From NCBI GenBank assembly GCA_026388765.1, contig JAPLJC010000234.1, positions 1-44,389 of the forward strand: a stretch of 44,389 bases of DNA, given 5' to 3'. Numbering within the stretch: the first letter of the stretch is position 1; each line of letters begins with the position of its first letter. The stretch is from Deltaproteobacteria bacterium (GTDB lineage: Bacteria > Desulfobacterota > Desulfobaccia > Desulfobaccales > 0-14-0-80-60-11). The notes below the pieces were generated by a model. That model had not been told where the DNA came from and ran no database searches. It worked only from the letters and a program-made list of their open reading frames with translations. Made by a program: the position numbers and the translations under genes. Positions 17,794 through 38,814 of the stretch are shown here, piece after piece.

Positions 17794-17828
17794 GGTCATT
17801 GCCTCTTATGTAAAAAGGAGGAACGGGT

Positions 17829-18146
17829 TTAGACGCAACCGGTGGGTTTGGCCAATCCTGCCATTTTGCAGGCGCCTTTCCCCGGTCCGGAGGGAAATAG
17901 CTCGTAAATGTGTTTCAGCTTGAAGCCCGTCACCTTGGAGAGGATTCGCACCATGGGGGCGATGCCGTTCTTCTTGTAGTAATCCTGGAGCATGTGGATG
18001 ACTTTCCAATGCTCTTCAGAAAGCTCCGTGATGCCTTCGGACTCTTTTACGTAATCCACCCATTCGTTGTTCCACTGGTCCAGATTCTCCAGGAAGCCGT
18101 CTTCGTCTACCGTGAAAGTTTTGCCTTTGAATTCTACAGTGGCCAT
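17829..18146 (-). CDS. dsrC: DsrC, sulfur-carrier substrate of dissimilatory sulfite reductase
   Basis: 105 residues, the normal DsrC length. The swinging C-terminal arm is complete, with both conserved cysteines: Cys 93 ('GKGACKMAG') and Cys 104, the penultimate residue ('KPTGCV'), 11 apart. This distinguishes true DsrC from TusE-like or single-Cys homologues. DsrC carries sulfur from sulfite as a trisulfide between its two Cys after reaction with DsrAB, to be reduced by the DsrMKJOP complex. The gene stands alone, as is usual, with its own promoter (18204-18232) and AAGGAGG just before the ATG. It is the strongest sign that the organism respires sulfur compounds. Confidence 0.95.
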   Translation of the reverse strand: MATVEFKGKTFTVDEDGFLENLDQWNNEWVDYVKESEGITELSEEHWKVIHMLQDYYKKNGIAPMVRILSKVTGFKLKHIYELFPSGPGKGACKMAGLAKPTGCV

Positions 18147-18203
18147 GCCGCAATATCCTCCTTCAATATTTGGTCCACGGGGTTTTTGATTTCAACGTAT
18201 TAA

Positions 18204-18312: not shown

Positions 18313-19704
18313 TCATCTGGCCCGGAGACCGGGGAAGATCTTCCCGGGATTCATGATCCGGTTGGGGTCGAAGGCCCGCTTCAGGCGCTGCTGCAAGGCC
18401 ATGGCCGCCTCGGAGAGTTCCATCTTAAGGTACGGGGCCTTGGTGAGGCCGATGCCGTGCTCCCCCGACAGGGTGCCGCGCAGCTCCCGGGTCAAGGCAA
18501 AGATATCCACCACGGTGGGGTTCACCGCCTCCCGTTCCCGTTCCACCTTGCGGTCATAAAGGACGTTGACGTGGATGTTGCCGTCCCCGGCGTGGCCGTA
18601 ACAGGGGATGAGCAGGCCCCGGCGGCGGGAGATTGCTTGCAAGCCGTCAATCAAGGCAGGAATTTCCCCCAGCGGCACCACCACGTCTTCGCTGACTTTG
18701 TTGGGCTTCACCTTGAGCAGGGCCGGAGAAATGACCTTGCGGGCCTTCCAGAGGTCTTCCGCCTCGGCCGCAGTTCGGGCCCGGAGAACGGGGGTTGCCC
18801 CCTGCTCCTCGCAAAACCGGGCGATGGCTGCGGCCCGCTCCTCCACGTCGTGGGGATGGCCGTCAACCGCCACCAGCAGCAGGGCCGCGGCCGCTTCGGG
18901 CACCTTAAAGGGCAGCAGCTCCCGGACGCAGCCCAAGGTGACCCGGTCCATGAATTCCAGGGCAGTGGGGGCGAGGCCCGCGGTGAGGATTTGGCCCACC
19001 GCCTGCGCCGCGGCCGCCAATGTCCCGAAGGCCGCCGCCAGGGTCTGCCGGGCCGCGGGCTTGGGCGCCAGCTTCAGGATAATGCGGGTGATCACCCCCA
19101 GGGTGCCCTCCGACCCCAGAAACAGCCGGGTGAGGTCGTAGCCCACCACCCCCTTCATGGTGCGGCTGCCGGCGTCGATGATTTCGCCGGTGGGCAAGAC
19201 CACGGTGAGCCCCAGGACGTAGTCCCGGGTGACGCCGTATTGCACCGCCACCGCGCCGCCGGCGCACTCGGCCACGTTGCCGCCGATGGTGCAGAACTCG
19301 GCGCTGGCCGGGTCCGGCGGATAGTAAAGGCCCCGGTCTTCCACCTCTCTTTTCAACCGGCCCAGGATGACTCCCGGCTCCACCACCGCCACCAGGTCGG
19401 CGGGGTTGATTTCCAGGATACGGTTCATCCTGGTCAACACCAGGACCACCCCACCCTCAATGGGCACGGCGCCACCGCTGCGGCCGGTGCCCGCCCCCCG
19501 CGGGGTGACGGGGAAGCGGTGCTCATTGGCCAGCCGCACAATCCGGGCAATTTCCTCCGCCGAACCCGGAAAAACCACCGCCTCCGGCGCGTGCGCCTGG
19601 TCGGTGGCATCATAGGCATAGGTCCAGCATTCCTCCGGCGAGGTGAGGACCTGCTCCGGGCCGACAATAGCCTCAATTTGACGAATGACGTTTTCGGGAA
19701 TCAT
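18313..19704 (-). CDS. glcD: FAD-linked 2-hydroxyacid dehydrogenase (glycolate/D-lactate type, GlcD family)
   Basis: 463 residues. The FAD-binding PCMH domain carries 'VTPRGAGTGRSGGAVP' and 'GGNVAECAGGAVAVQYG'; the C-terminal oxidase domain has 'PCYGHAGDGNIHVNVLYD' and 'LSGEHGIGLTKAPYL', with His residues that typically bind the catalytic metal and substrate. The enzyme oxidises glycolate or D-lactate and passes electrons to a partner Fe-S protein (GlcF or similar); no glcF is in the window, though it may lie elsewhere. A broken copy of its first ~50 codons lies upstream at 20820-20976 on the same strand. Confidence 0.88.
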   Translation of the reverse strand: MIPENVIRQIEAIVGPEQVLTSPEECWTYAYDATDQAHAPEAVVFPGSAEEIARIVRLANEHRFPVTPRGAGTGRSGGAVPIEGGVVLVLTRMNRILEINPADLVAVVEPGVILGRLKREVEDRGLYYPPDPASAEFCTIGGNVAECAGGAVAVQYGVTRDYVLGLTVVLPTGEIIDAGSRTMKGVVGYDLTRLFLGSEGTLGVITRIILKLAPKPAARQTLAAAFGTLAAAAQAVGQILTAGLAPTALEFMDRVTLGCVRELLPFKVPEAAAALLLVAVDGHPHDVEERAAAIARFCEEQGATPVLRARTAAEAEDLWKARKVISPALLKVKPNKVSEDVVVPLGEIPALIDGLQAISRRRGLLIPCYGHAGDGNIHVNVLYDRKVEREREAVNPTVVDIFALTRELRGTLSGEHGIGLTKAPYLKMELSEAAMALQQRLKRAFDPNRIMNPGKIFPGLRAR

Positions 19705-19754
19705 GAAGTCAAATTGACTGAAAGCTTCCGAACTCCCAACTGTGACCTCTCAGG

Positions 19755-20819: not shown

Positions 20820-20976
20820 ATCGGCAGAGCCGACCAGCGGCAGGACCACCGCCTCCGGCGCCTGGGCCTGGTCGGTGGCATCATAGGCCTAGGTCCAGCA
20901 GTCCTTGGGGGCTGGTGAGGATGTGATTGGGGCCGACTATGGCCTCAATTTTACGAATTACGTTTTCGGGAATCAT
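20820..20976 (-). pseudogene. Remnant of the 5' end of a second glcD
   Basis: From ATG 20976, 19 of the first 23 residues match the glcD at 19704 (MIPENVIR-IEAIVGP...LTSP). The match continues, after a frame change near 20900, as 'CWT', 'AYDATDQAQAPEAVV' and then fades about 20820. Eleven bases before the ATG are also alike. It is a truncated, frameshifted duplicate with no functional coding capacity. Confidence 0.85.
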
Positions 20977-21085
20977 GAAGGCAAATTGTAATTCAAGCTG
21001 AACATATCTACAAAAAATTAGCAGTCAAAAAGTTGAACATAAATAGCAGTTCTACTGGTGGTATATGCAGGTGACCTCAGCTTTT

Positions 21086-23272: not shown

Positions 23273-23284
23273 GGGGGGGGGGGG
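23273..23284 (+). repeat. Run of 12 G
   Basis: Twelve consecutive G in the gap between the response regulator and the radC remnant. No gene reads through it convincingly, so it cannot be assigned a phase-variation role. Confidence 0.6.
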
Positions 23285-23388
23285 AGCCCCCATCTCTCGT
23301 GCAGTTGCGCACGCCTTCCCTATAACACCAAGCGCGCTTGTGGCGCACTATCTTGCCATTATTGATACTTGTCAGGAACTTTTGATAC

Positions 23389-23487
23389 CTACAACATATT
23401 CTTCTCCGCCAAACTAAAATAGCCGTGGCGACTGATGATCAGGTGGTCGTGGACCGTCAGGTTCAGGGCATGGGAGACCTTCACCGG
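23389..23487 (-). pseudogene. Duplicate of the radC 3' end
   Basis: About nine in ten bases match the 3' end of radC at 26191-26287, including the codons for 'HALNLTVHDHLIISRHGYFS' and the terminal TAG. No upstream radC sequence can be followed with confidence past about 23490. Together with intact radC it forms a ~100-bp direct repeat bracketing the autotransporter. Confidence 0.85.
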
Positions 23488-23560
23488 CCAGAGGCCAGCG
23501 CCACCAAGCGTCTCGCCGGTGCCCCCCGAGTGGTGCCCCGCCGCAGCCGATTACGACCGC

Positions 23561-24457
23561 TCAGAACGCCCAGCGCAGGCCGGCGTTGATGGCATGGGCG
23601 GTGGTGGTGCTCCGCCCCACCTCGGCGTTATAATCCAAATAGAGTGAATAATTCTGCTTGAGCAGGGTGACGCTGGTCCCCACCACCGCAAAGTCGCGTT
23701 GGGGCTTGTCGGTCTGAAAATTAAAGGTGCTGCCCACCTGGCTGAGGCGGGCGTCCAGGCCCCGGGCGTCGTTGGAGAACTCGTGCTGGTAGGTGGCGTA
23801 GACTTGGGGCACCACCTTGACCGGGCCCCGCTGGAGGGGGACGGCGGCCTTGGCGCCCACCCCGGTTTGCAGTGATTCGGCGTTCTGGGGTGAGACCTTC
23901 AGGTCCAGGGCTCCGGCCCCGCTCTCCGTAAAACCGTCCACCCAGAGGCGGGAGTAGGCCAGGGAAGCCACCGGGGTCAGAACCAGCCCACCGGCCTTCA
24001 GATCGTAGCCCGTCTCGCCGTAAGCGTTGAACTGGTTGCCGGTGGGCGAGCTCTTGGCATTGCGGCTAAGGCTGCCGAAAGAAATATCTCGCCCCAGGTC
24101 GTAAAGATTCAGGGCATAGCCCAGGGAGCCGAAGGCGTAAAAGGACTCGGGCAGGTAGGCGACGTAGGCTGTGAGGGGCCAGGTGTTAGCTTCCACATTG
24201 CCCCCGGAGCCGTGAAAAGCGGCCCCGGTGTGGCTATAGCCGGTGGCCAGGCCCACCAGGAGGTGGTCCCGCACCCGGTAGTCAGCCCCGGTGGTGAAGC
24301 CCGCCAGGGTGAAGTCAAAGCCCGTCTGGTTCAGCGAGGACTTCTGGGACCCGAGGATGAGGCCCGGGTCGAGATAAAGGCCCCAGCGGGTTTCGGGGGC
24401 TGCCTCTTTCCTGGCGGCGATCAGCCCGGTAAGGCTGGAGGAATTGTAGGCCAGCAT
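23561..24457 (-). CDS. Autotransporter beta-barrel domain (separated by a stop from its passenger)
   Basis: The reading frame is 298 residues from ATG 24457, and in frame it continues upstream to 24505, directly after the TGA that ends the passenger. It starts near the linker ('MLAYNSSSLTGLIAARKE') and consists of alternating amphipathic strands, ending 'NAGLRWAF' with the C-terminal Phe recognised by the Bam machinery, as in type V secretion barrels. A barrel alone has no signal peptide here, so it probably needs readthrough of the stop or is non-functional. Length (~270 strands region) fits the usual autotransporter domain. It would insert in the outer membrane and let the passenger cross. 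Confidence 0.8.
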   Translation of the reverse strand: MLAYNSSSLTGLIAARKEAAPETRWGLYLDPGLILGSQKSSLNQTGFDFTLAGFTTGADYRVRDHLLVGLATGYSHTGAAFHGSGGNVEANTWPLTAYVAYLPESFYAFGSLGYALNLYDLGRDISFGSLSRNAKSSPTGNQFNAYGETGYDLKAGGLVLTPVASLAYSRLWVDGFTESGAGALDLKVSPQNAESLQTGVGAKAAVPLQRGPVKVVPQVYATYQHEFSNDARGLDARLSQVGSTFNFQTDKPQRDFAVVGTSVTLLKQNYSLYLDYNAEVGRSTTTAHAINAGLRWAF

Positions 24458-24505
24458 CAGCCCCGCGGTCCGGGAGTAACTGGGGTTGAAGGAGCCGGGC
24501 CAGCC

Positions 24506-26092
24506 TCACGCGCTGTCCATTTCCGAGCCGCCGAACCGGAGGTTGGTGACCCGGCGGGAAAGGTTGCGCATTTGCAGGTTGGCCCCGGCCAAGGCCAGGG
24601 CGGGGAGGGCGGTCGCCTTATCCGGGGAGATCTGCTGGAAGGCGTTGGCCACCAAGCTGCTGCTGGAGAGACCGTCGATGGCATTTAAAGCGGTATTCAG
24701 ATCCCCGGCGGCACTGGTGGCCACGCTGTTGAGGATGGCGCCCACGTTCGACTGGTTGCGGGTCAGGGTAAGCGCGGGGTTGGTGTAGCTGCGCAGAACC
24801 AGGAGATCGAAAGTATTAGGGGTGTATAGCGGCTGCCAGTACAGAGTGGGGGTAATAAATTGGTTACCCATGGTGCCGAAGGTTCCGCTGATGCCCTGCG
24901 CCGCGCTGATGACCCCGTGAAAGAGCTGGTTGCCGAGAGGCAGGTAACCGCCTTGCAGCACCGGGATGAAGGCGCCATTGAGGCTGGCGGTCCCCCCGAC
25001 CTCGATCTTGGGGAAATTTGCCGAGGAGGAGAGCCCTACGGCCAGGGTGCCGGCGGCGGTCTGAATGTAGTTGCCGCCCACGGAAATGCCGCCCCCCAAT
25101 AACGCCAAAGTGCCGCGGCTGCCGGGACTGGCCGCCAGCACCAGGTCACCGGTTATGGTGTGGGTGCCGCCAGTCTGGATGAAGGTGCCGTTGCCGCTAG
25201 CGCCGATAACTTCGTTCTCGACTGAGAGGTCGCCGCCGCTCAGGTTATAAGTGCCGCTACTGTTGCGCCCATCACCCAGACTGAGGTCGCCGTTTATTTT
25301 ATTAACGCCGTTGCTCTGGTTGAAGACGCCGGTCCCGAAGACGCCGACGATCTCAAAGGGGGCCGTGAGACTACCGTTGCTCAGGTTATAGGCGCCCCTG
25401 GCATCGCCCCAATAGCCCAGATAGAGTCCTGAATAAATATCGATCAATTGCACCGTATTGCTGCCGCCGGTCTGATTGAAAATGCCGCTGCCGTATAAGC
25501 CCACATATTGACGGACCTGAGAGAGGCTGCCGCCGCTCAGGTTATAGACGCCGCTGCTGCCGGGAGAAAATCCCAGATAGGTGTAGCTGTTAACGCTCGC
25601 GGTACCGCCGCTCTGGTTGAAGACACCTTGTCCGGAGAAGCCAATGAACTCAACACCGGTCGAGAGGCTGCCGCCACTTAGGTTATAAGTGCCGCTGCCG
25701 CCCGGGTCGTAGCCCAGCTGGAGATTGCCAATCATTGTATTGTCGCCGTTGCTTTGGGTGAAGACACCGCTGCCGGTAAGGCCGATAACTTCATTGCTGG
25801 CTGAGAGGCTGCCGCCACTCAGGTTATAGGCGCCGCTGCTGCCGGCAGAATAGCCCAGATAGAGGTTGCCGGTCAATGTATTGGTGAAACCGCTCTGGTT
25901 CAAGTTGCCGGTGGATAAGTTACCGACATAGATATTATTAAAGGTGACGTCGTTGCTGACTGCATAAGTGTCGCCGCCATCGACGACGAGATCCGCGCCC
26001 CGTGACCAACACGTGGTCAGAAAGACCGTCAGCGCCAGGGCCGTCCCTATTAACCACCAATGTTGGCCGTTAGGTCTTTTTATCCGGCTCAT
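24506..26092 (-). CDS. Autotransporter passenger with T5SS/PEP-CTERM-type repeats
   Basis: 528 residues. An N-terminal signal peptide (charged start, hydrophobic 'LIGTALALTVFLTTC') is followed by about five repeats of ~47 residues, each containing 'YNLSGGSLS', then 'EVIGLTGSGVFTQS' and a 'GNLQLGY' strand; one repeat is 5 residues longer. This is the beta-strand repeat typical of T5SS/PEP-CTERM-associated passengers, folding as a beta-helix. The end ('LQMRNLSRRVTNLRFGG') is the junction normally leading straight into a barrel, but a TGA (24506-24508) ends it. The barrel continues in the same frame. Likely a surface adhesin-like protein. Confidence 0.8.
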   Translation of the reverse strand: MSRIKRPNGQHWWLIGTALALTVFLTTCWSRGADLVVDGGDTYAVSNDVTFNNIYVGNLSTGNLNQSGFTNTLTGNLYLGYSAGSSGAYNLSGGSLSASNEVIGLTGSGVFTQSNGDNTMIGNLQLGYDPGGSGTYNLSGGSLSTGVEFIGFSGQGVFNQSGGTASVNSYTYLGFSPGSSGVYNLSGGSLSQVRQYVGLYGSGIFNQTGGSNTVQLIDIYSGLYLGYWGDARGAYNLSNGSLTAPFEIVGVFGTGVFNQSNGVNKINGDLSLGDGRNSSGTYNLSGGDLSVENEVIGASGNGTFIQTGGTHTITGDLVLAASPGSRGTLALLGGGISVGGNYIQTAAGTLAVGLSSSANFPKIEVGGTASLNGAFIPVLQGGYLPLGNQLFHGVISAAQGISGTFGTMGNQFITPTLYWQPLYTPNTFDLLVLRSYTNPALTLTRNQSNVGAILNSVATSAAGDLNTALNAIDGLSSSSLVANAFQQISPDKATALPALALAGANLQMRNLSRRVTNLRFGGSEMDSA

Positions 26093-26190
26093 AACTCATC
26101 TCGTTCTGTAAGAAGTCGGCGCATGAATGTCAGCCCTCCGTCTAAGAAGATCTGGGTCCATGATAAAAACTTTTCGAAAAGTTGCTAGAC

Positions 26191-26880
26191 CTACAACAGA
26201 TTCTTCTCCGCCAGGCTGAAGTAACCGTGGCGGCTGATGATCAGGTGGTCGTGGACCGTCAGGTTGAGGGCGTGGGAGGCCTTCACCAGGGAGCGGGTCA
26301 GTTCCAGGTCGGCGGTCGAGGGGGTGAGGTTGCCGCTCGGGTGGTTGTGCACCAGGATGAGGCCGGTGGCCTTGTGCTTCAGGGCCAGTTCCAGGACCTT
26401 GCGGGGGTAGACCACCGTCTGGTTGACCGTGCCCTCCTGGACGATCTCTTCGGCCATGATTTCGTTCTGGCTGTTGAGGAAGATCACCCGGAACTGCTCA
26501 TCGGCCAGGCCGCCCATGGCGGTGCGGCAGTAATCCACCAGGGCGCTCAGGGATCCGATCTTTTCCCGAGCCAGGATCCCGTCCTTCAAATAGTATTCGG
26601 CGCAGGCCTTCACCAGGCGGATGAGCACCGCGGAGTATTCCCGGATGCCGGGAACTTCCAGCAAGGCCTCGGGAGTGGCGTCCAAGACCCGGGGAAAGGA
26701 GCCGAAGTGGGCGATCACCTGCTTGGCCAGGGGCTTGACGTCGGAGTAGGGAATGGCAAAGGTAAGCAGCAGCTCCAGCAGCTCGTAATCTTGCAAGGCC
26801 CCGGGCCCGCCCTGGAGGAAGCGCTGCCGGAGGCGGGCGCGGTGGCCGTGATAGTGGGGTTTTTCTGGTTTTCCGGCCAT
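26191..26880 (-). CDS. radC: RadC family JAB/MPN-domain protein
   Basis: 229 residues, the usual length. An N-terminal HhH-like part ('LQDYELLELLLTFAIP', 'LEVPGIREYSAVLIRLVKAC') precedes the JAB/MPN domain with the metal motif 'HNHPSG' (His 178, His 180) and Asp 191. It was named for DNA repair, but its enzymatic role is unsettled; it is often carried on mobile DNA. Its 3' end is duplicated at 23389-23487. Confidence 0.93.
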   Translation of the reverse strand: MAGKPEKPHYHGHRARLRQRFLQGGPGALQDYELLELLLTFAIPYSDVKPLAKQVIAHFGSFPRVLDATPEALLEVPGIREYSAVLIRLVKACAEYYLKDGILAREKIGSLSALVDYCRTAMGGLADEQFRVIFLNSQNEIMAEEIVQEGTVNQTVVYPRKVLELALKHKATGLILVHNHPSGNLTPSTADLELTRSLVKASHALNLTVHDHLIISRHGYFSLAEKNLL

Positions 26881-26931
26881 CTCCCCTTTCTTTTACTCTG
26901 GTGGTTGGCTAATTGCAACTATGAAAAAGGC

Positions 26932-26959
26932 TAGGGGCGGACACTTAGGTCCGCCCCTA
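26932..26959. repeat. REP-like palindrome, variant copy
   Basis: TAGGGGCGGAC, loop ACTTAG, GTCCGCCCCTA; same outer arm as the perfect palindromes at 5052, 29247 and 35908. Confidence 0.7.
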
Positions 26960-29178: not shown

Positions 29179-29207
29179 TTATTATCATCTATACATTATC
29201 ATGTCAA
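29179..29207 (-). promoter_or_regulatory. Likely sigma-70 promoter of cooS
   Basis: On the minus strand: -35 TTGACA (29202-29207), 17-base spacer, -10 TAATAA (29179-29184), or GATAAT with a 15-base spacer. About 60 bases before the cooS ATG. Confidence 0.55.
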
Positions 29208-29246
29208 GCAAAATAAAAGAATGATATTCTCTTGTCAGGCGGCTCT

Positions 29247-29274
29247 GTAGGGGCGGCTCGCGAGCCGCCCCTAC
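29247..29274. repeat. REP-like perfect palindrome, copy 2
   Basis: Perfect 28-bp palindrome, GTAGGGGCGGCTCG then its exact complement, between cooS and the formylglycine-enzyme-like gene. Confidence 0.8.
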
Positions 29275-29298
29275 GTTGGATTTTCACAGGGAAAAAGA

Positions 29299-30171
29299 TT
29301 ACTTGGCAGAATTCGCCTGGCGCACCACCCGGAAGCCGATATAGCCGTCGGCATAGCCGGGCGGGGCGGATTGGCGGGCGGCACCGCGCAGGTCCCGGGC
29401 CTGGGAGAACCAGGAGCCGCCTTTCAGCAGGCGCAGCAACCCCGGTTTGAAAGGACCGGAGCCCGTCGGCGTATATTGGTCCAGGCACCATTCCGAGACG
29501 TTGCCGGCCATATCGAACAGGCCGTAACCATTGGCCGGGAAGGAACCCACCGGGGCGGTGAAGAGGTAACCGTCTTTGGCGGTCCGGTCATGGCGCAAAT
29601 TGGCCCGATAAATCCCGCCCGCGTCCGGGGCCTCGGCGCCCCAAGGGTAGGGCTGGCCGGTGAGGCCGCCCCGGGCCGCGGCCTCCCACTGGGCCTCACT
29701 GGGCAAATTATGGCTGACGCCGGTCACCTGGGTGAGCCAGCGGCAAAAAGCCATGGCGTCATCCCAGGTCACCCCCACCACCGGCTGGTTGGGACCGTTG
29801 AGGTTCTTATCCTCCCAATAGAGGGGCGGCTGCTGGCCGGTGGCCTTGAGAAAGCCCTGATACTGGGCGTTGGTGGTCTCGGTGACCGCCAGGTAAAAGC
29901 TAACCACCCGCACCCGGTGGGGCGTGTCTTCGTCGGCGTAGCGCCCCGGCTCGCTGAGGGGCGAACCCAGGAGATAATACCCGGCAGGGATGAGGCGGAA
30001 GCGGATGGACTGGGCCTCCAGGGTTTCGTGAGCCAGGGCGGAGCAGACGAGCGCGAGTAGCCAGCACAGCGACGGGAACAGGAGTCCCAGGGTGCCGCGG
30101 TCAGTTTTCCGGTCGCCGGCCCTGGGTTTGTTCCGCCACATTTTTTTGACGGTGCGATGGGCTCGATCCAT
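29299..30171 (-). CDS. Formylglycine-generating-enzyme-fold (SUMF1-like) protein, non-catalytic
   Basis: 290 residues. A basic N-terminal segment then one hydrophobic anchor or signal segment ('LGLLFPSLCWLLALVCSALA') precedes the FGE-sulfatase fold: 'PAGYYLLGSPLSE', 'VTETTNAQYQGFL', 'PVVGVTWDDAMAFCRWL', 'LPSEAQWEAAARGG', 'YGLFDMAGNVSEWC', 'LKGGSWFSQARDLRGAAR', 'GFRVVR'. The catalytic cysteine pair of true formylglycine enzymes, after 'RGGSF', is absent ('SQARDLRG'), so modification of sulfatases is unlikely. The family also serves as a binding or scaffold domain, as in PvdO-like proteins. It starts 9 bases after the adenylate cyclase, so the two are probably co-transcribed. Confidence 0.82.
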   Translation of the reverse strand: MDRAHRTVKKMWRNKPRAGDRKTDRGTLGLLFPSLCWLLALVCSALAHETLEAQSIRFRLIPAGYYLLGSPLSEPGRYADEDTPHRVRVVSFYLAVTETTNAQYQGFLKATGQQPPLYWEDKNLNGPNQPVVGVTWDDAMAFCRWLTQVTGVSHNLPSEAQWEAAARGGLTGQPYPWGAEAPDAGGIYRANLRHDRTAKDGYLFTAPVGSFPANGYGLFDMAGNVSEWCLDQYTPTGSGPFKPGLLRLLKGGSWFSQARDLRGAARQSAPPGYADGYIGFRVVRQANSAK

Positions 30172-32512: not shown

Positions 32513-33961
32513 TCAAATCTCCCCCACTTTCCGGCAGGCGGTGAAATAAAGAACCAGCCGAATATCCTCTGGCCGCAGCCCCTTGGCCCTGGCCGTCATC
32601 TCCCGGTAGGCCAGGAGCTGGGGCCGGTATTTTTCGGTTTCCCGAGCGATGAAATCCTCCCAATCCTCCGGCTTCTCGGGCCGGGAGGTTTTATAATCCA
32701 GCAGCCACCAACTCTCGCCATCAAAGGCCAGGCGGTCGATCTGGCCCCGGCGCAGGGTGTCCGGCGCGGCCAGGTCTTCCAGGAGCCACTCGCTCACCGC
32801 GCCGGGCAGACCAGGGTCAAGGAGGCGCAGCAACCAGGGGTCGCGGCGGCAGGCCTCCAGTTCCTCCAGAAGCTCCGGGGCTAACTTTTGCGCGGTCTCC
32901 GGGTCCAGGCCCGCCTGGCGCAAGGCCGCGGCCAGGCCGGCCACCCCCGGGAACTCGCCCCCTCGGGCCAGGGTCTCCAGGCCTCGATGAATGATCTCCC
33001 CCCGGAGCCGGGGGAGATCCCCGTCCTCGGCGGCCGACGCGGCTGCGGCCATTATTTCGGCCTCCGCCAGTTGGGAGGGAGAGATTTTCCGATAGGGTGC
33101 GGCCTCCGGGGCAAAGCTCAGCGGCGCCGGCAGGTCTGGGGTTATCCTGGCCCAAGGGCTGGGGGGCGGCAGTTCCGTCAGCAGTTCCACCCGGAGTTCC
33201 GGCCCCGGCCAGGTTACTGTGGTCCCGGGCGGGGGCAGTTCGGCCCGGTAATGCTCCTGGAGCCAGCCCAGGGGGCTTTCCTTGGGAATGGTCCATTCCC
33301 CTTTGCTGTTTCGTTTCACTGCGGCGCTGAGCGTCAGTTGCTGCCGGGCCCGGGTCACCGCCACGTAGAAGACCCGCCGGGCTTCCTCCAGGATACGGCG
33401 GTCTTTCAAATCTTTTAATAACAGGTAAAGGGAACTCTGCTTTTCCTGGACGTAGGGCCGGGCCAGGGCCAGGCCCTGAACCCGGCTGTCGGGAATCTCC
33501 TCCAGCAGGAAGGGAGGTATTTTGTCCTCGCCCGTCAAAGGCTGCCAATCCAGGCAGGGCAGAAACACCCGGGTGAACTCCAACCCCTTGGCGCCGTGCA
33601 CCGTCAGTATTTCCACCGGCGAATCCTGGGCCCTGGGGTCCGGTGGCTGAAAGGCCTCCGGCAAGTTGAAGTCGGCCTGGGAAAAAGTGGCCTCCGGCAG
33701 GCCGGACTCCGCCTGGGCCAGGAGTTCCAGGTAAGCCCGCGCGCAGGCCACCCCCATGGGGCCTTCCCAGGCGGTTATTCCCGTCCAGGCCTCCGTCTCA
33801 GCTAACCATTGTCCGACTATTTCCCTTAGAGGCCGGCGCCCCACCCGGGCCAGGGCCGCCAACAGGCTTTTAGTCAGGCTCGCTAAATCCCCCGGGCGCC
33901 CCTCACTTTCGGCAGAATGCCGCAGCTTCTCCGGCCAAAGCTCTCCCGGCGCCGCGGCCAC
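32513..33961 (-). CDS. addA: AddA-type helicase-nuclease, C-terminal part (frameshifted gene)
   Basis: This frame (GTG at 33961 is probably not a real start) carries helicase motif V 'EILTVHGAKGLEFTRVFLP', motif VI 'RVFYVAVTRARQQLTL' and, at the end, a RecB-family PD-(D/E)XK nuclease ('RRGQIDRLAF', 'WWLLDYKTSRPEKPEDW'). It follows the N-terminal part at 33903-35876 in a different frame, with a 59-base overlap. The N part reads sensibly to '...DGLAWAAL' and this part resumes at 'VAAAPGELWPEKL', with perhaps ten residues of the normal join missing. The sequence as given cannot make an intact AddA unless there is a sequencing error or a coupled reinitiation. Confidence 0.75.
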   Translation of the reverse strand: MAAAPGELWPEKLRHSAESEGRPGDLASLTKSLLAALARVGRRPLREIVGQWLAETEAWTGITAWEGPMGVACARAYLELLAQAESGLPEATFSQADFNLPEAFQPPDPRAQDSPVEILTVHGAKGLEFTRVFLPCLDWQPLTGEDKIPPFLLEEIPDSRVQGLALARPYVQEKQSSLYLLLKDLKDRRILEEARRVFYVAVTRARQQLTLSAAVKRNSKGEWTIPKESPLGWLQEHYRAELPPPGTTVTWPGPELRVELLTELPPPSPWARITPDLPAPLSFAPEAAPYRKISPSQLAEAEIMAAAASAAEDGDLPRLRGEIIHRGLETLARGGEFPGVAGLAAALRQAGLDPETAQKLAPELLEELEACRRDPWLLRLLDPGLPGAVSEWLLEDLAAPDTLRRGQIDRLAFDGESWWLLDYKTSRPEKPEDWEDFIARETEKYRPQLLAYREMTARAKGLRPEDIRLVLYFTACRKVGEI

Positions 33962-35876
33962 CTGGGTAAGGACGCAGGGCGGCCCAGGCCAGCCCGTCCT
34001 GGGGCCGGGTGAGGGCCCGGGCCAGGTTGTGGAGATGCCGCACCACCCGGCTGTCTGCCAGCTTCAAACCTTCCCGGACTTTAGGCGTCAGGCCGGCCGC
34101 CGCCAGGGCCTGGAGATAGAGCGGCAAATGCCGCCGGGTGAACAGCAGGATGCCGATGGTCTCGTCTTTTTTGAGATCAGGCAAGGCCTCGGCCACCTGC
34201 CGGGCCAGCCAGCGGGCCTCGGCCTCCCGGGGAGAGAGCTGTTCATTGCCGGAAAACAGCGCCAGCTTGGGAACGGGTCCAGCCGTGGCCCCGGGGCGCG
34301 GGTCCGCGGCATGGAAACTCAAACTCGGGACCCGATCCAGGACGTCGGCAAAGACGGCGTTGGCCCAGTCGATCAAGGTCCGGGTGGCCCGGAAGTTGGT
34401 GGTGAGCAGTAGGGAATCCAGGGGAAAACGCTCCTCCGGGCAGGGGAGGCCCTGGGAAGAGGCCGCAAAAAGCCGCGGTTTGGCCTGGCGCCAGCCGTAA
34501 ATGGACTGCTTGGGATCCCCCACCACCATCAGGCTGCGCCCCTCTCCGGCCTGCCAGCCCGCCATGAGGCGGCACAGCAACTCCATCTGGTTCTGGCTGG
34601 TATCCTGGAATTCGTCCACCAACAGGTGCTGCAGCTTGAGGTCCAAACGCAGCAGGATCTCGCCGGGGTCTTCATGGGAGAGCAACCGCAGGGTGGCCTG
34701 CTCCAGGGCGATGAAGTCCAAGGCCTGACGCTGGGCGCAGAGTCTTTCGTAAGTGTCCAGCGCCTCTCCGAGGAGAATCACTAAATCCTGCAGGGCCTGG
34801 GCTTCCTCCGGCTGGACGCCGAAAGACTGCAACTGCCGGCATCGTTTCAGATGCTGCACCAGAGAGTCGGGCAGTTCCTGGATCATAAAGGCCCAGGGGC
34901 CTTTATTGAAGCCGGCCGGGAATCCCACCTTCTCGCTCAGTTGCTTGCGGCGCTCCCCGCCCTTGGTCAGCAGCACCTGGGAGATGGCCTGCCAGTGCGG
35001 CACGTCCAGGGGGGCGCTCCCGGGGATTTCCGGGGGCAGGGGCGCGTCCAGAAAAACCCCGCCAAGTTCCCCCCTAAGGCGGGGCCACTCCCGGCCCAGT
35101 TCGGTCGCCCCGAAGCCGTCCACCAGGCTTTGCAGTACCGGGGCCAGCAACAGCCGGAAACGCTCCTCCAATAACCGGTGGTAGGCCGCCGGTTCCCGGC
35201 TATGGCGGGCCAGATCCAGAAAATCTCCCAGGCTGTCCCGGCGGGCCAGCAGGGTGCGCAGTTCCCCGGCCAGTCGGCCCCAGTCGTTGTTGAGGCGCAC
35301 CAGACGCCGCACCAGGGCCCGGCGCACCGGGTCCTGGGCGGGCCGGGCCGAAAGGCGCCGGCGCAGATCTTCCAGGGCCTCCTCCTTCAGGCGGCGGGCC
35401 TCGTCCTCCTCCAAGAGGCGAAATTCCAGGGGCGCCTCCGCCTCCTGGGGTGCCAGCCTCAGGAGCTGGGCGCAAAAGCTGTGAAAGGTCATGACCGGCA
35501 GGCGTTCCGCCGCCAGCATATCCTGGAGGGCTCCCGACTGGCGGCCGAAGTGTCGCAGGACTTCCTGGGCCAGGTCCGCCAGGCGTTGTTCCCAGGGGTG
35601 TTCAAAGGAAGGCTCGGCCCGGGGCCAGAGAAGTTCCATGATCCGGGTGCGCAGCTCACCCGCGGCCTTGCGGGTAAAGGTCAGGGCCAGGAGTTCTTCC
35701 GGCGCCGTAACATTGGCCAGCAGGGTAAGAAAGCGGGCCAGGAGCACCGAAGTCTTGCCGGAGCCCGCCGGGGCTTCCAGGTGAAAGCTCCCCCGGGGGC
35801 TTAAGGCCCGGTCCCGGGCATCTTGATCGGCGGGCAGGGCGGTCATGGCATTTTTCTGGCTCTGGTCATGGGACAT
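33903..35876 (-). CDS. addA: AddA-type UvrD helicase, N-terminal part (frameshifted gene)
   Basis: 657 residues. UvrD/RecB-type motor: motif I 'LEAPAGSGKTSVLLARF' (Walker A 35-42), 'LLALTFTRKAAGELRTRI', DExx motif 'LLVDEFQDTSQNQMELL', motif III 'MVVGDPKQSIYGWRQA', motif IV 'LTTNFRATRTLIDWAN'. The end after 'GLAWAAL' is Arg/Gly/Ala-rich read-out in the wrong frame, stopping at 33903. AddA with AddB processes double-strand ends for recombination. The gene lies 144 bases beyond addB (36021-38741), separated by two palindromic repeats. The start ATG 35876 has only a weak ribosome site (GGGA). Confidence 0.8.
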   Translation of the reverse strand: MSHDQSQKNAMTALPADQDARDRALSPRGSFHLEAPAGSGKTSVLLARFLTLLANVTAPEELLALTFTRKAAGELRTRIMELLWPRAEPSFEHPWEQRLADLAQEVLRHFGRQSGALQDMLAAERLPVMTFHSFCAQLLRLAPQEAEAPLEFRLLEEDEARRLKEEALEDLRRRLSARPAQDPVRRALVRRLVRLNNDWGRLAGELRTLLARRDSLGDFLDLARHSREPAAYHRLLEERFRLLLAPVLQSLVDGFGATELGREWPRLRGELGGVFLDAPLPPEIPGSAPLDVPHWQAISQVLLTKGGERRKQLSEKVGFPAGFNKGPWAFMIQELPDSLVQHLKRCRQLQSFGVQPEEAQALQDLVILLGEALDTYERLCAQRQALDFIALEQATLRLLSHEDPGEILLRLDLKLQHLLVDEFQDTSQNQMELLCRLMAGWQAGEGRSLMVVGDPKQSIYGWRQAKPRLFAASSQGLPCPEERFPLDSLLLTTNFRATRTLIDWANAVFADVLDRVPSLSFHAADPRPGATAGPVPKLALFSGNEQLSPREAEARWLARQVAEALPDLKKDETIGILLFTRRHLPLYLQALAAAGLTPKVREGLKLADSRVVRHLHNLARALTRPQDGLAWAALRPYPGGRGAGRALAGEAAAFCRK

Positions 35877-36020: not shown

Positions 36021-38741
36021 TTAATCCGTTTCCCCTTCGTCATTGTCCGCTACGGTCTTAATGGTGAATCCGCAAAGCAGCGTGAAGGGGCAATACTTAC
36101 AGGCTCCCAAATTTTTCCCCTCCGGCGCCGGGGTGGGGTTCGGCCGAAAATCACCGGCGGCCAGGCGCCGCCCCAGGTCTTGCAGTTTGGCCACCAGGGC
36201 CGCGGCCACCTGGGGCCATTCCCCGGCGCGGGCGGCAAAATCCTCATGCTTCAGGTGCTTTTCCCGGATTGATTTGAGGCCGATAAACCCGGCCCGGAGC
36301 CCTTGCCGCTCCTGTGGCGCGTTAGTGAGGCCGCGCTCCACCGCCAGTAGATAGCAGGGGAGCTGGAATTCCTGCAGCTCGTCAAATACCTGTTTGGCGC
36401 CGGGAACTTCGCCACTCTTATAGTCCCAGACCATGGCCTGCCGGTCTTCCGGGTGATAGTCCAGGCGGTCGAGGCGGCCTTTCAAGGCAAAGGGCCAACC
36501 CGCCTCCTTGAGCCCGGCGAATTCCGCTTCCATGAGCTGCCAGCGCCAGCCCTGTTCATAACGCTCCCGCTCCAGGCGCAACCAATCCAGGAGCAGACTC
36601 CGCCCGGTTTCCGTCTCCCCCAGCCAGCGCTCCAGTTCCGCCTGCCAGTGCAGATCTTCCAGGAGATCTCCCAGGACCTGGCGGGCGGCGGCGGCAAGCC
36701 TTGCCTGGGCCTGCTCGTGGTCCCAACCGTGCTCCTCCAGGAATCCTTTAAAATCGGAGGTGAACCGGGCCAGAACCTTATGGAGACGGTCGCCCCGCTC
36801 CCGGGGGTCCAAACCGGCCTCGATCTCCGGCAGTTCCTTGAGCTTCAGGATGATCTCAAGCAGAAACCGGCAGGGGCAGCCCAGGGCGGTGGCGGCCTTG
36901 CTCAAGGAGAGCTGGGGGTCAAGATTTAGGGATAGCGGACCGTCGGGGTAACCTGGAAAGGTGGTCCCGCCGCCGGCAAAGGCCGCCCGGATGGCCGGAC
37001 TCCGCAGCCAGGCCGAATGGGGCCGGCTCAGCACCGTCATCTCCTGCGGCTCCCAGGGGCCCAGGTACATGGGGCTGCCCACCCGCTCTTCGTCTTCGGT
37101 TACCTTTGGCCGAGTGAGGACCAGGTCCGGGGCGGCGCCCAACAGGGTATCGTAAAGTTCCCGGGAAAATTGATGCTGGCTCTGGTAAGTACCCCCGAGA
37201 ACGGCGCGCCTTTCGGCGGCGGTGAGCAGGGGCAGGGAGCGGGGCGGCGGGGGGAAGGACCCGGAGTTCATGCCCAGGCAAAAGACCCGGGAAAATTCCA
37301 GACCCCGCATCTCCAAGAGTCCCAAGATTTGGAGGCCGGCTTCCTGGACCCCGGGTCCGGGCAACCGCACCTTGCCGGCCCCATGCTCCAGCCAGGCCAG
37401 GAATTCCCCAGCCTCCAGGGGTTCAGACGACAGGCCGGCACCCAGTTCTTGTAACAGGGCCTTGAGACTGCCCCACTGAATCATTTCCGCCTCAGAAGCC
37501 GGCGCAAATTCCAGCTCTTGCCAGGCCCGCGCCAACCTCTGACGCCACTGCTCCCCGGTGCCGGCAGTCCGTAGTGAGTCCCAGAGTCTCGCCAGCCGCG
37601 ACAACAGCTGTATCCCCCGGTCCCCCCTGGAGAACTGGGCTACCGCCTTCTGAAAGAAATGCCAGCCCTGGTCAAGGCGGCGCTCCCGGAAGATCCGGTC
37701 CCACAGAGCCGTCTGGTCCCGGTCCCGGCTGAGGCCGCGATAAAAGGGCGACAGCAGGAGCGACATCAGGTCGCACCTATGCTCCCCGGCGGCGACGAAC
37801 TTCAGGGGCAGGGTGGCGGCCAGGAAGAGTGGGGTTTCCACCAGGCGCGGCCCCTGGGAAAAGTTGTAGGCCCAGCCGCCGGCGGCCTGCGGCGGCCCCA
37901 GTAATTCTGCCAAAACCGCCTGCAAACGCGGGCCATATTGTTCCATATCCATGGCGGTCACCGCCAGCCGGTGCAGGGGAATGCCGGCAGCGGCCGACTC
38001 CAACAGCCGGGCGGCCACCCAAGCCCCCTCCTGGCTCCGGTCGGGCAGGACCACCGCGGCCTGCACTGCCTGGGGATCGCCCCGCACCTGGAGGTGTAGC
38101 AGTCGGGTGCGCCGGGCCACGGCCATAAGGAAGGCGCTCTCCGCCGGGGCGGCGCTCTCCAGGCCCACCACCATGATCTTCCCGGGCACGGGGAGCTTCC
38201 CATCAGCCAAACGGGCCGAGAGATAGGCCGGCAGCTCTCCCGGGGCCAGCCAGCCGCCTGCCGCCAGTAGGTGCCTGAAGGTTCGGGTAACCTGGCGCCG
38301 CCAGGCGATCAGGGGCCCATCGTCCGTGGGGCGGGCGTCCCCGGTGGGGCGGGCGTCCCCGCCCGCCAATTGATGGCGGCAGAGGATATTATCGGTCTCG
38401 TCCAGGGCCTGGGCCCAGGGGAGATCAGCCTTGGTGCCGGACAACACCGGCGTGGCCTTGATGGCCTGGAGCCACAGGGACAGGCGCCGCAAGTCGGGAG
38501 CTAAGACAAGCTCGGACCATTGGTGGAGGTCGTGCAACCAGCCTTGCAAGGTGACCAGGGGCAGGGGTTCCCAGGCGGGGCGGCCGGCCTGGAGTTGACC
38601 CTGGCGCTGCCGCTGCCAGAGCTGCTGCGCCAGCCGCTGGTGCGGCACCACCACCAGGGTGCCGGGGCCGGCCTCCTTCAGGAGAAAATCTTGGAGGGCC
38701 GCGGCAGTGGAGAACAGCTTAAGGGGCGAAACGCCAAGCAT
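36021..38741 (-). CDS. addB: AddB-like nuclease subunit (PD-(D/E)XK, Fe-S)
   Basis: 906 residues. The long N-terminal part is an inactive-helicase-like region with no Walker A: 'TLVVVPHQRLAQQLW'. The C-terminal nuclease has 'GRLDRLDYH' and 'VWDYKSGEVP', flanked by four iron-sulfur cysteines: Cys 622 (with Cys 624 as an alternative), then Cys 881, Cys 884 and Cys 890 in 'CKYCPFTLLC'. This is the AddB layout, where the cluster staples the nuclease domain. It would act with AddA in end resection. Some branches lack helicase motor function in AddB, which fits here. It lies 73 bases downstream of ftsH; co-transcription is possible. Confidence 0.8.
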   Translation of the reverse strand: MLGVSPLKLFSTAAALQDFLLKEAGPGTLVVVPHQRLAQQLWQRQRQGQLQAGRPAWEPLPLVTLQGWLHDLHQWSELVLAPDLRRLSLWLQAIKATPVLSGTKADLPWAQALDETDNILCRHQLAGGDARPTGDARPTDDGPLIAWRRQVTRTFRHLLAAGGWLAPGELPAYLSARLADGKLPVPGKIMVVGLESAAPAESAFLMAVARRTRLLHLQVRGDPQAVQAAVVLPDRSQEGAWVAARLLESAAAGIPLHRLAVTAMDMEQYGPRLQAVLAELLGPPQAAGGWAYNFSQGPRLVETPLFLAATLPLKFVAAGEHRCDLMSLLLSPFYRGLSRDRDQTALWDRIFRERRLDQGWHFFQKAVAQFSRGDRGIQLLSRLARLWDSLRTAGTGEQWRQRLARAWQELEFAPASEAEMIQWGSLKALLQELGAGLSSEPLEAGEFLAWLEHGAGKVRLPGPGVQEAGLQILGLLEMRGLEFSRVFCLGMNSGSFPPPPRSLPLLTAAERRAVLGGTYQSQHQFSRELYDTLLGAAPDLVLTRPKVTEDEERVGSPMYLGPWEPQEMTVLSRPHSAWLRSPAIRAAFAGGGTTFPGYPDGPLSLNLDPQLSLSKAATALGCPCRFLLEIILKLKELPEIEAGLDPRERGDRLHKVLARFTSDFKGFLEEHGWDHEQAQARLAAAARQVLGDLLEDLHWQAELERWLGETETGRSLLLDWLRLERERYEQGWRWQLMEAEFAGLKEAGWPFALKGRLDRLDYHPEDRQAMVWDYKSGEVPGAKQVFDELQEFQLPCYLLAVERGLTNAPQERQGLRAGFIGLKSIREKHLKHEDFAARAGEWPQVAAALVAKLQDLGRRLAAGDFRPNPTPAPEGKNLGACKYCPFTLLCGFTIKTVADNDEGETD

Positions 38742-38814
38742 GGTCAGATCTCTTGGAGATTAATGGCCGATTCTTGTGAAGATACATCAGCTATGCCTTT
38801 TTGAGGAAGCTATT

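Follow-up and report, generated by a model that had tools for sequence, protein, structure and literature searches.

An in-frame TGA in the passenger/barrel linker of a deltaproteobacterial autotransporter gene with an undecayed β-barrel

Introduction

Classical (type Va) autotransporters have a signal peptide, a passenger and a C-terminal β-barrel in one polypeptide, and members of this class that are split by stop codons are already known as pseudogenes. In Brucella, the bmaA, bmaB and bmaC loci are reported to be split by stops such that no ORF has both a signal peptide and a barrel, and they are counted as pseudogenes (PMC8111173). A study of Campylobacter describes capC and capD as present in intact or inactive copies depending on the lineage, the inactive copies being pseudogenes split by nonsense changes (PMC7168839). 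In-frame TGA codons are also found in bacterial selenoproteins, and new selenoproteins are, according to one report, usually found via TGA/Cys pairs in homologues together with a stem-loop right after the TGA (PMC1088965).

The locus described here lies in a stretch of 44,389 nucleotides (the window), which makes up the entire contig C254 in a 263-contig draft genome that is 93.48% complete. The locus shares with the Brucella and Campylobacter genes that a premature stop leaves no ORF having both a signal peptide and a barrel. Unlike in those pseudogenes, there is here one stop and no further decay, and the stop is known from one assembly, so that no sharing of the stop across a lineage is claimed.

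Results

The interrupted frame and its domains

On the minus strand, positions 23561-26092 translate as a single frame that is interrupted by one internal TGA (24506-24508) and closed by another (23561-23563). The upstream ORF (24506-26092) encodes 528 residues, and behind the internal TGA 314 codons are open in the same frame, giving 528 + 1 + 314 = 843 for the interrupted frame; translation thereby confirms the claim, made in an earlier note on this DNA, that one frame of ~843 residues is split by a single TGA. The downstream ORF (23561-24457) has 298 residues when counted from its first ATG, at 24457. The ORF list, the translation and a repeat search show that the upstream part starts with a hydrophobic, signal-like N terminus (judged by eye), continues with a repetitive passenger, in which repeats of families D1 and D2 are spaced ~141 nt (47 residues) apart between 25224 and 25916, and has a conserved stretch before the linker in which it ends at the TGA. 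The part behind the stop (23561-24505) consists of the rest of the linker and a β-barrel, which matches the Pfam family PF03797 (Autotransporter beta-domain) over profile positions 10-255 of 255 with an E-value of 6e-57, its score of 193.7 bits against a cut-off of 26 identifying it as the C-terminal barrel of a classical autotransporter. The nearest solved sequence is the esterase EstA (Protein Data Bank entry: 3kvn; E-value 6e-11), and a phage collection gave two weak barrel matches only. The signal-like N terminus, the repetitive passenger and the C-terminal PF03797 barrel are shared with the type Va autotransporters; unlike in these, the frame is split by a TGA ahead of the barrel, and as sequenced no one polypeptide contains all three parts.

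The earlier note had placed the junction exactly at the passenger/barrel linker. This needs correction in detail: the TGA is in a variable linker behind a better conserved stretch, and it precedes the PF03797 match, which begins at residue 52 of the fragment behind the stop, by about 50 residues. In a predicted structure that covers the 150 residues preceding the stop, the stop position itself and the barrel (five sequences; mean pLDDT 40.5), the TGA position is assigned, with low confidence, to a coil that follows helices and precedes the first strand.

The stop position in relatives

A query made of the 149 residues preceding the stop, the stop itself and the barrel was searched against 29 genomes from the order, of which 14, the window's own included, have a match, as 13 of the 28 relatives do. 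All 20 matches that span the TGA point (from 11 relative genomes) are without a stop, and the window copy alone has the TGA; the passenger end and the barrel are joined in one frame in these relatives. Among the 29 relative loci, the TGA position is aligned with a sense codon in 16, falls in a gap in four and is not reached in nine. The aligned sense codons encode Gly in 7 of the 16 cases and Ala, Ser, Thr, Asn, Phe or Leu in the others, and none of the 16 is TGA or a Cys or Trp codon, which answers the question of the homologues' residue at this position. As in nonsense pseudogenes, homologues thus carry a sense codon where the window copy has a stop. The linker varies in length and sequence, and conservation is higher in the stretch that precedes it and in the block GLMLAYN that follows it. 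The barrel of the nearest relative (in G021) is 70% identical. A scan of named genomes gave six loci, the best of them 64% identical; the relatives found include Desulfobacca sp. and further draft genomes of deltaproteobacteria, and another assembly of the same species was not among them. From these relatives and from the presence of cooS beside radC, the host is probably a Desulfobacca-like relative of sulfate reducers. When the assembly was searched with a pattern of 30 bases surrounding the TGA, in which the stop's first base was given as N, there was one occurrence, so that there is no second copy of the junction.

The split frame is more than a chance arrangement, as its two halves can be aligned to single uninterrupted frames in the relatives. 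Because the spanning matches in relatives lack the stop and align sense codons with it, the locus is one interrupted gene and not two. It could be argued that two functional genes encode a secreted passenger and a separate barrel acting in trans, and two ORFs are present in the sequence; this reading was rejected as very improbable, since all spanning matches of relatives are single frames (20/20), and the start of the barrel ORF is also without a signal peptide when judged by eye. Homologues with truly separate genes at this boundary, which would have overturned the one-gene claim of the earlier note, were sought in the order and not found.

Constraint on the barrel

An alignment of 18 sequences was made from the window copy and 17 loci that could be aligned along almost the entire query; the remaining 12 of the 29 loci were left out. 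The window barrel agrees with the other 17 members at all 44 positions that do not vary among them (0 departures) and departs at 2 of the 95 positions that are shared by at least 15 of the 17, which is as low as for any member, the departures of the other members in these two sets ranging from 0 to 11 and from 2 to 36, respectively. When the barrel is compared with that of the nearest relative, 73, 49 and 115 of the 314 codons differ at codon positions 1, 2 and 3, respectively. Relaxed constraint behind the stop, as is expected of a pseudogene, is therefore not seen, and the barrel has thus been translated up to a recent time or still is. Such an undecayed barrel would fit a pseudogene only if the lesion is very recent.

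Since the barrel is without decay, the stop either arose very recently, is an error of the consensus or is read through, which bears out the view of the earlier note that the gene is broken, mis-sequenced or subject to read-through: one undecayed frame carries a stop that is absent from relatives. The undecayed barrel is predicted by all three explanations, and it counts against a fresh mutation that it suits an error or read-through equally well.

A second frame break in the same contig

It is possible, and we would put it at somewhat less than even odds, that a wrong base has entered this contig of a draft assembly and that the real autotransporter gene is whole. In addition to the lack of decay behind the stop, a second undecayed frame break, which affects addA at a distance of about 9 kb on this contig, speaks for such an error, and so does the observation that the interrupted gene is the sole PF03797 gene found in its genome. 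The addA gene (32513-35876) is split by a frameshift into a part of 657 residues, which matches the start of AddA, and a part of 482 residues in another frame, which carries the UvrD C-terminal and PD-(D/E)XK domains. Comparison with six whole-length relatives places the break at about 33954-33988, with both sides well conserved. A strong match to addA is present in 25 of the 28 relatives, with a frame of at least 948 residues in 23 of these 25, and the two remaining ones (686 and 732 residues) are near contig ends. That one contig has two breaks without decay points to consensus errors.

On the other side, only 1 of 45 places tested outside the window is broken, so the sampled assembly is not generally error-ridden, and members of the autotransporter family elsewhere are truly decayed, so that loss of the gene is plausible biology. 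With 2 of 18 places broken in the window there is no clear excess over the 1 of 45 outside (p about 0.19), the denominators being rough, as some places rest on antisense frames. These counts come from a survey in which a mechanical rule flagged 8 of 63 places, three of them real breaks: the autotransporter, addA and a short gene with a frameshift elsewhere in the same genome (locus L177, 16043-16481), which we take to be transposase-like from its type of sequence. The other five flagged places were rejected as breaks, three because antisense or overlapping frames are involved (17826-18200; 29182-30144, judged from the strand; and 36024-38747) and two because the matches run into sequence before the start codon (26191-26934 and locus L169). 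A smaller survey of 15 genes flagged addA alone.

Selenocysteine and other read-through

The TGA might instead be decoded part of the time, by selenocysteine or by a near-cognate tRNA, such that most of the passenger is made without a barrel and some with it. The intact constraint on the barrel would agree with this, and the genome has both tRNA-Sec (75.7 bits; cut-off 47) and selB (346.1 bits; cut-off 242.25); since both are above their cut-offs, selenocysteine could be inserted somewhere in this genome. A hairpin of 5 bp, with a 5-nt loop starting with G, is also found 36 nt after the TGA. The in-frame TGA and the presence of tRNA-Sec and selB are what the locus shares with bacterial selenoproteins; unlike in these, there are no Cys homologues (no TGA, TGC or TGT among the 16 aligned codons) and no distinctive SECIS-like structure. 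The site is in an unconserved linker and not in a redox motif, and in no relative is TGA, Cys or Trp found at this position. The 69 nt from the TGA fold no more stably than shuffled sequences (z = -0.34; 64 of 200 shuffles as good), and the downstream SECIS search, made with assumed spacing limits, gave this loose hairpin only, one at least as good following 33% of the 4171 codons of nine window ORFs. No literature on such read-through was found, judging by title. Selenocysteine is thus not supported in spite of the machinery, as the earlier note had expected for this protein, and part-time decoding in general is considered improbable.

General reassignment of UGA was also rejected, since TGA is an ordinary stop in the window, where it ends 5 of the 15 other ORFs looked at; an ORF list made with translation table 4 contains mostly frames that run on through TGA.

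The radC-glcD junction

The autotransporter is situated between a full radC (26191-26880), its upstream neighbour, which cooS adjoins, and a duplicate of the final 31 codons of radC (codons 199-229; 23392-23484), both likewise on the minus strand, the duplicate being found just past the barrel by a repeat search and by comparison with radC. The two radC tails agree at 83 of 93 bases, the codon differences being synonymous in eight cases and non-synonymous in two, and they are part of a longer direct repeat (23356-23494 and 26158-26296; 81%). A run of about eleven G (23276-23286) is present in the intergenic region between the response regulator and the end of the autotransporter. In six loci of relatives (L080, L081, L082, L084, L087 and L092), radC is succeeded by glcD either immediately or after no more than about 0.8 kb. 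In the window these two genes are separated by the autotransporter, the radC tail, a two-component pair encoded on the opposite strand, a further copy of the glcD start and a band-7 gene. The 5' end of glcD is duplicated (about 20829-20999 versus 19559-19726), and the second copy is frame-broken by three one-base insertions.

The radC tail and the glcD 5' duplicate mark both ends of an ancestral radC-glcD junction, and because radC and glcD are adjacent or near each other in relatives, the autotransporter probably belongs to a block that was gained at this junction. The largely synonymous difference between the two radC tails suggests that each once belonged to a functional radC gene, as would be the case if an incoming segment had carried a tail of its own. 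An accessory gene gained at such a junction is likely to be lost again.

Discussion

The reading that we favour, with a rough probability of 0.5, is that this is one type Va autotransporter gene, which a single nonsense change, creating a TGA within the passenger/barrel linker, has inactivated very recently. The stop would then be real: the ribosome would terminate at the TGA at 24506-24508, the passenger of 528 residues would reach the periplasm by export but have no pore of its own, and the barrel, if made at all from the internal ATG, would have no signal peptide and would remain inside the cell.

Breakage is common in this autotransporter family. Barrel remnants are present in three frames in one contig of a relative (G022:C14), and barrel fragments with one TAG each are present in two others (G022:C7 and G019:C717). 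In G022 and G019, these decayed remnants, which have frame changes or TAG, were located at L073 (8146-8965), L028 (1507-1836) and L031 (1495-1710). The interruption is thus ordinary in kind, and the rearranged radC-glcD junction that brackets the gene is more unusual than the split itself.

Were the TGA instead a switch, with read-through supplying a small amount of complete autotransporter, enough to keep the barrel constrained, while much of the passenger is left untethered in the periplasm, it would be a new way for type V secretion to set how much passenger is made relative to barrel; this is about as improbable as part-time decoding as such. As found, the split matters little: the gene encodes an accessory surface protein of a family that often decays, and it has one nonsense change that is either fresh or only apparent. 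It carries a lesson for annotation, in that gene callers will list the passenger and the barrel as two genes here.
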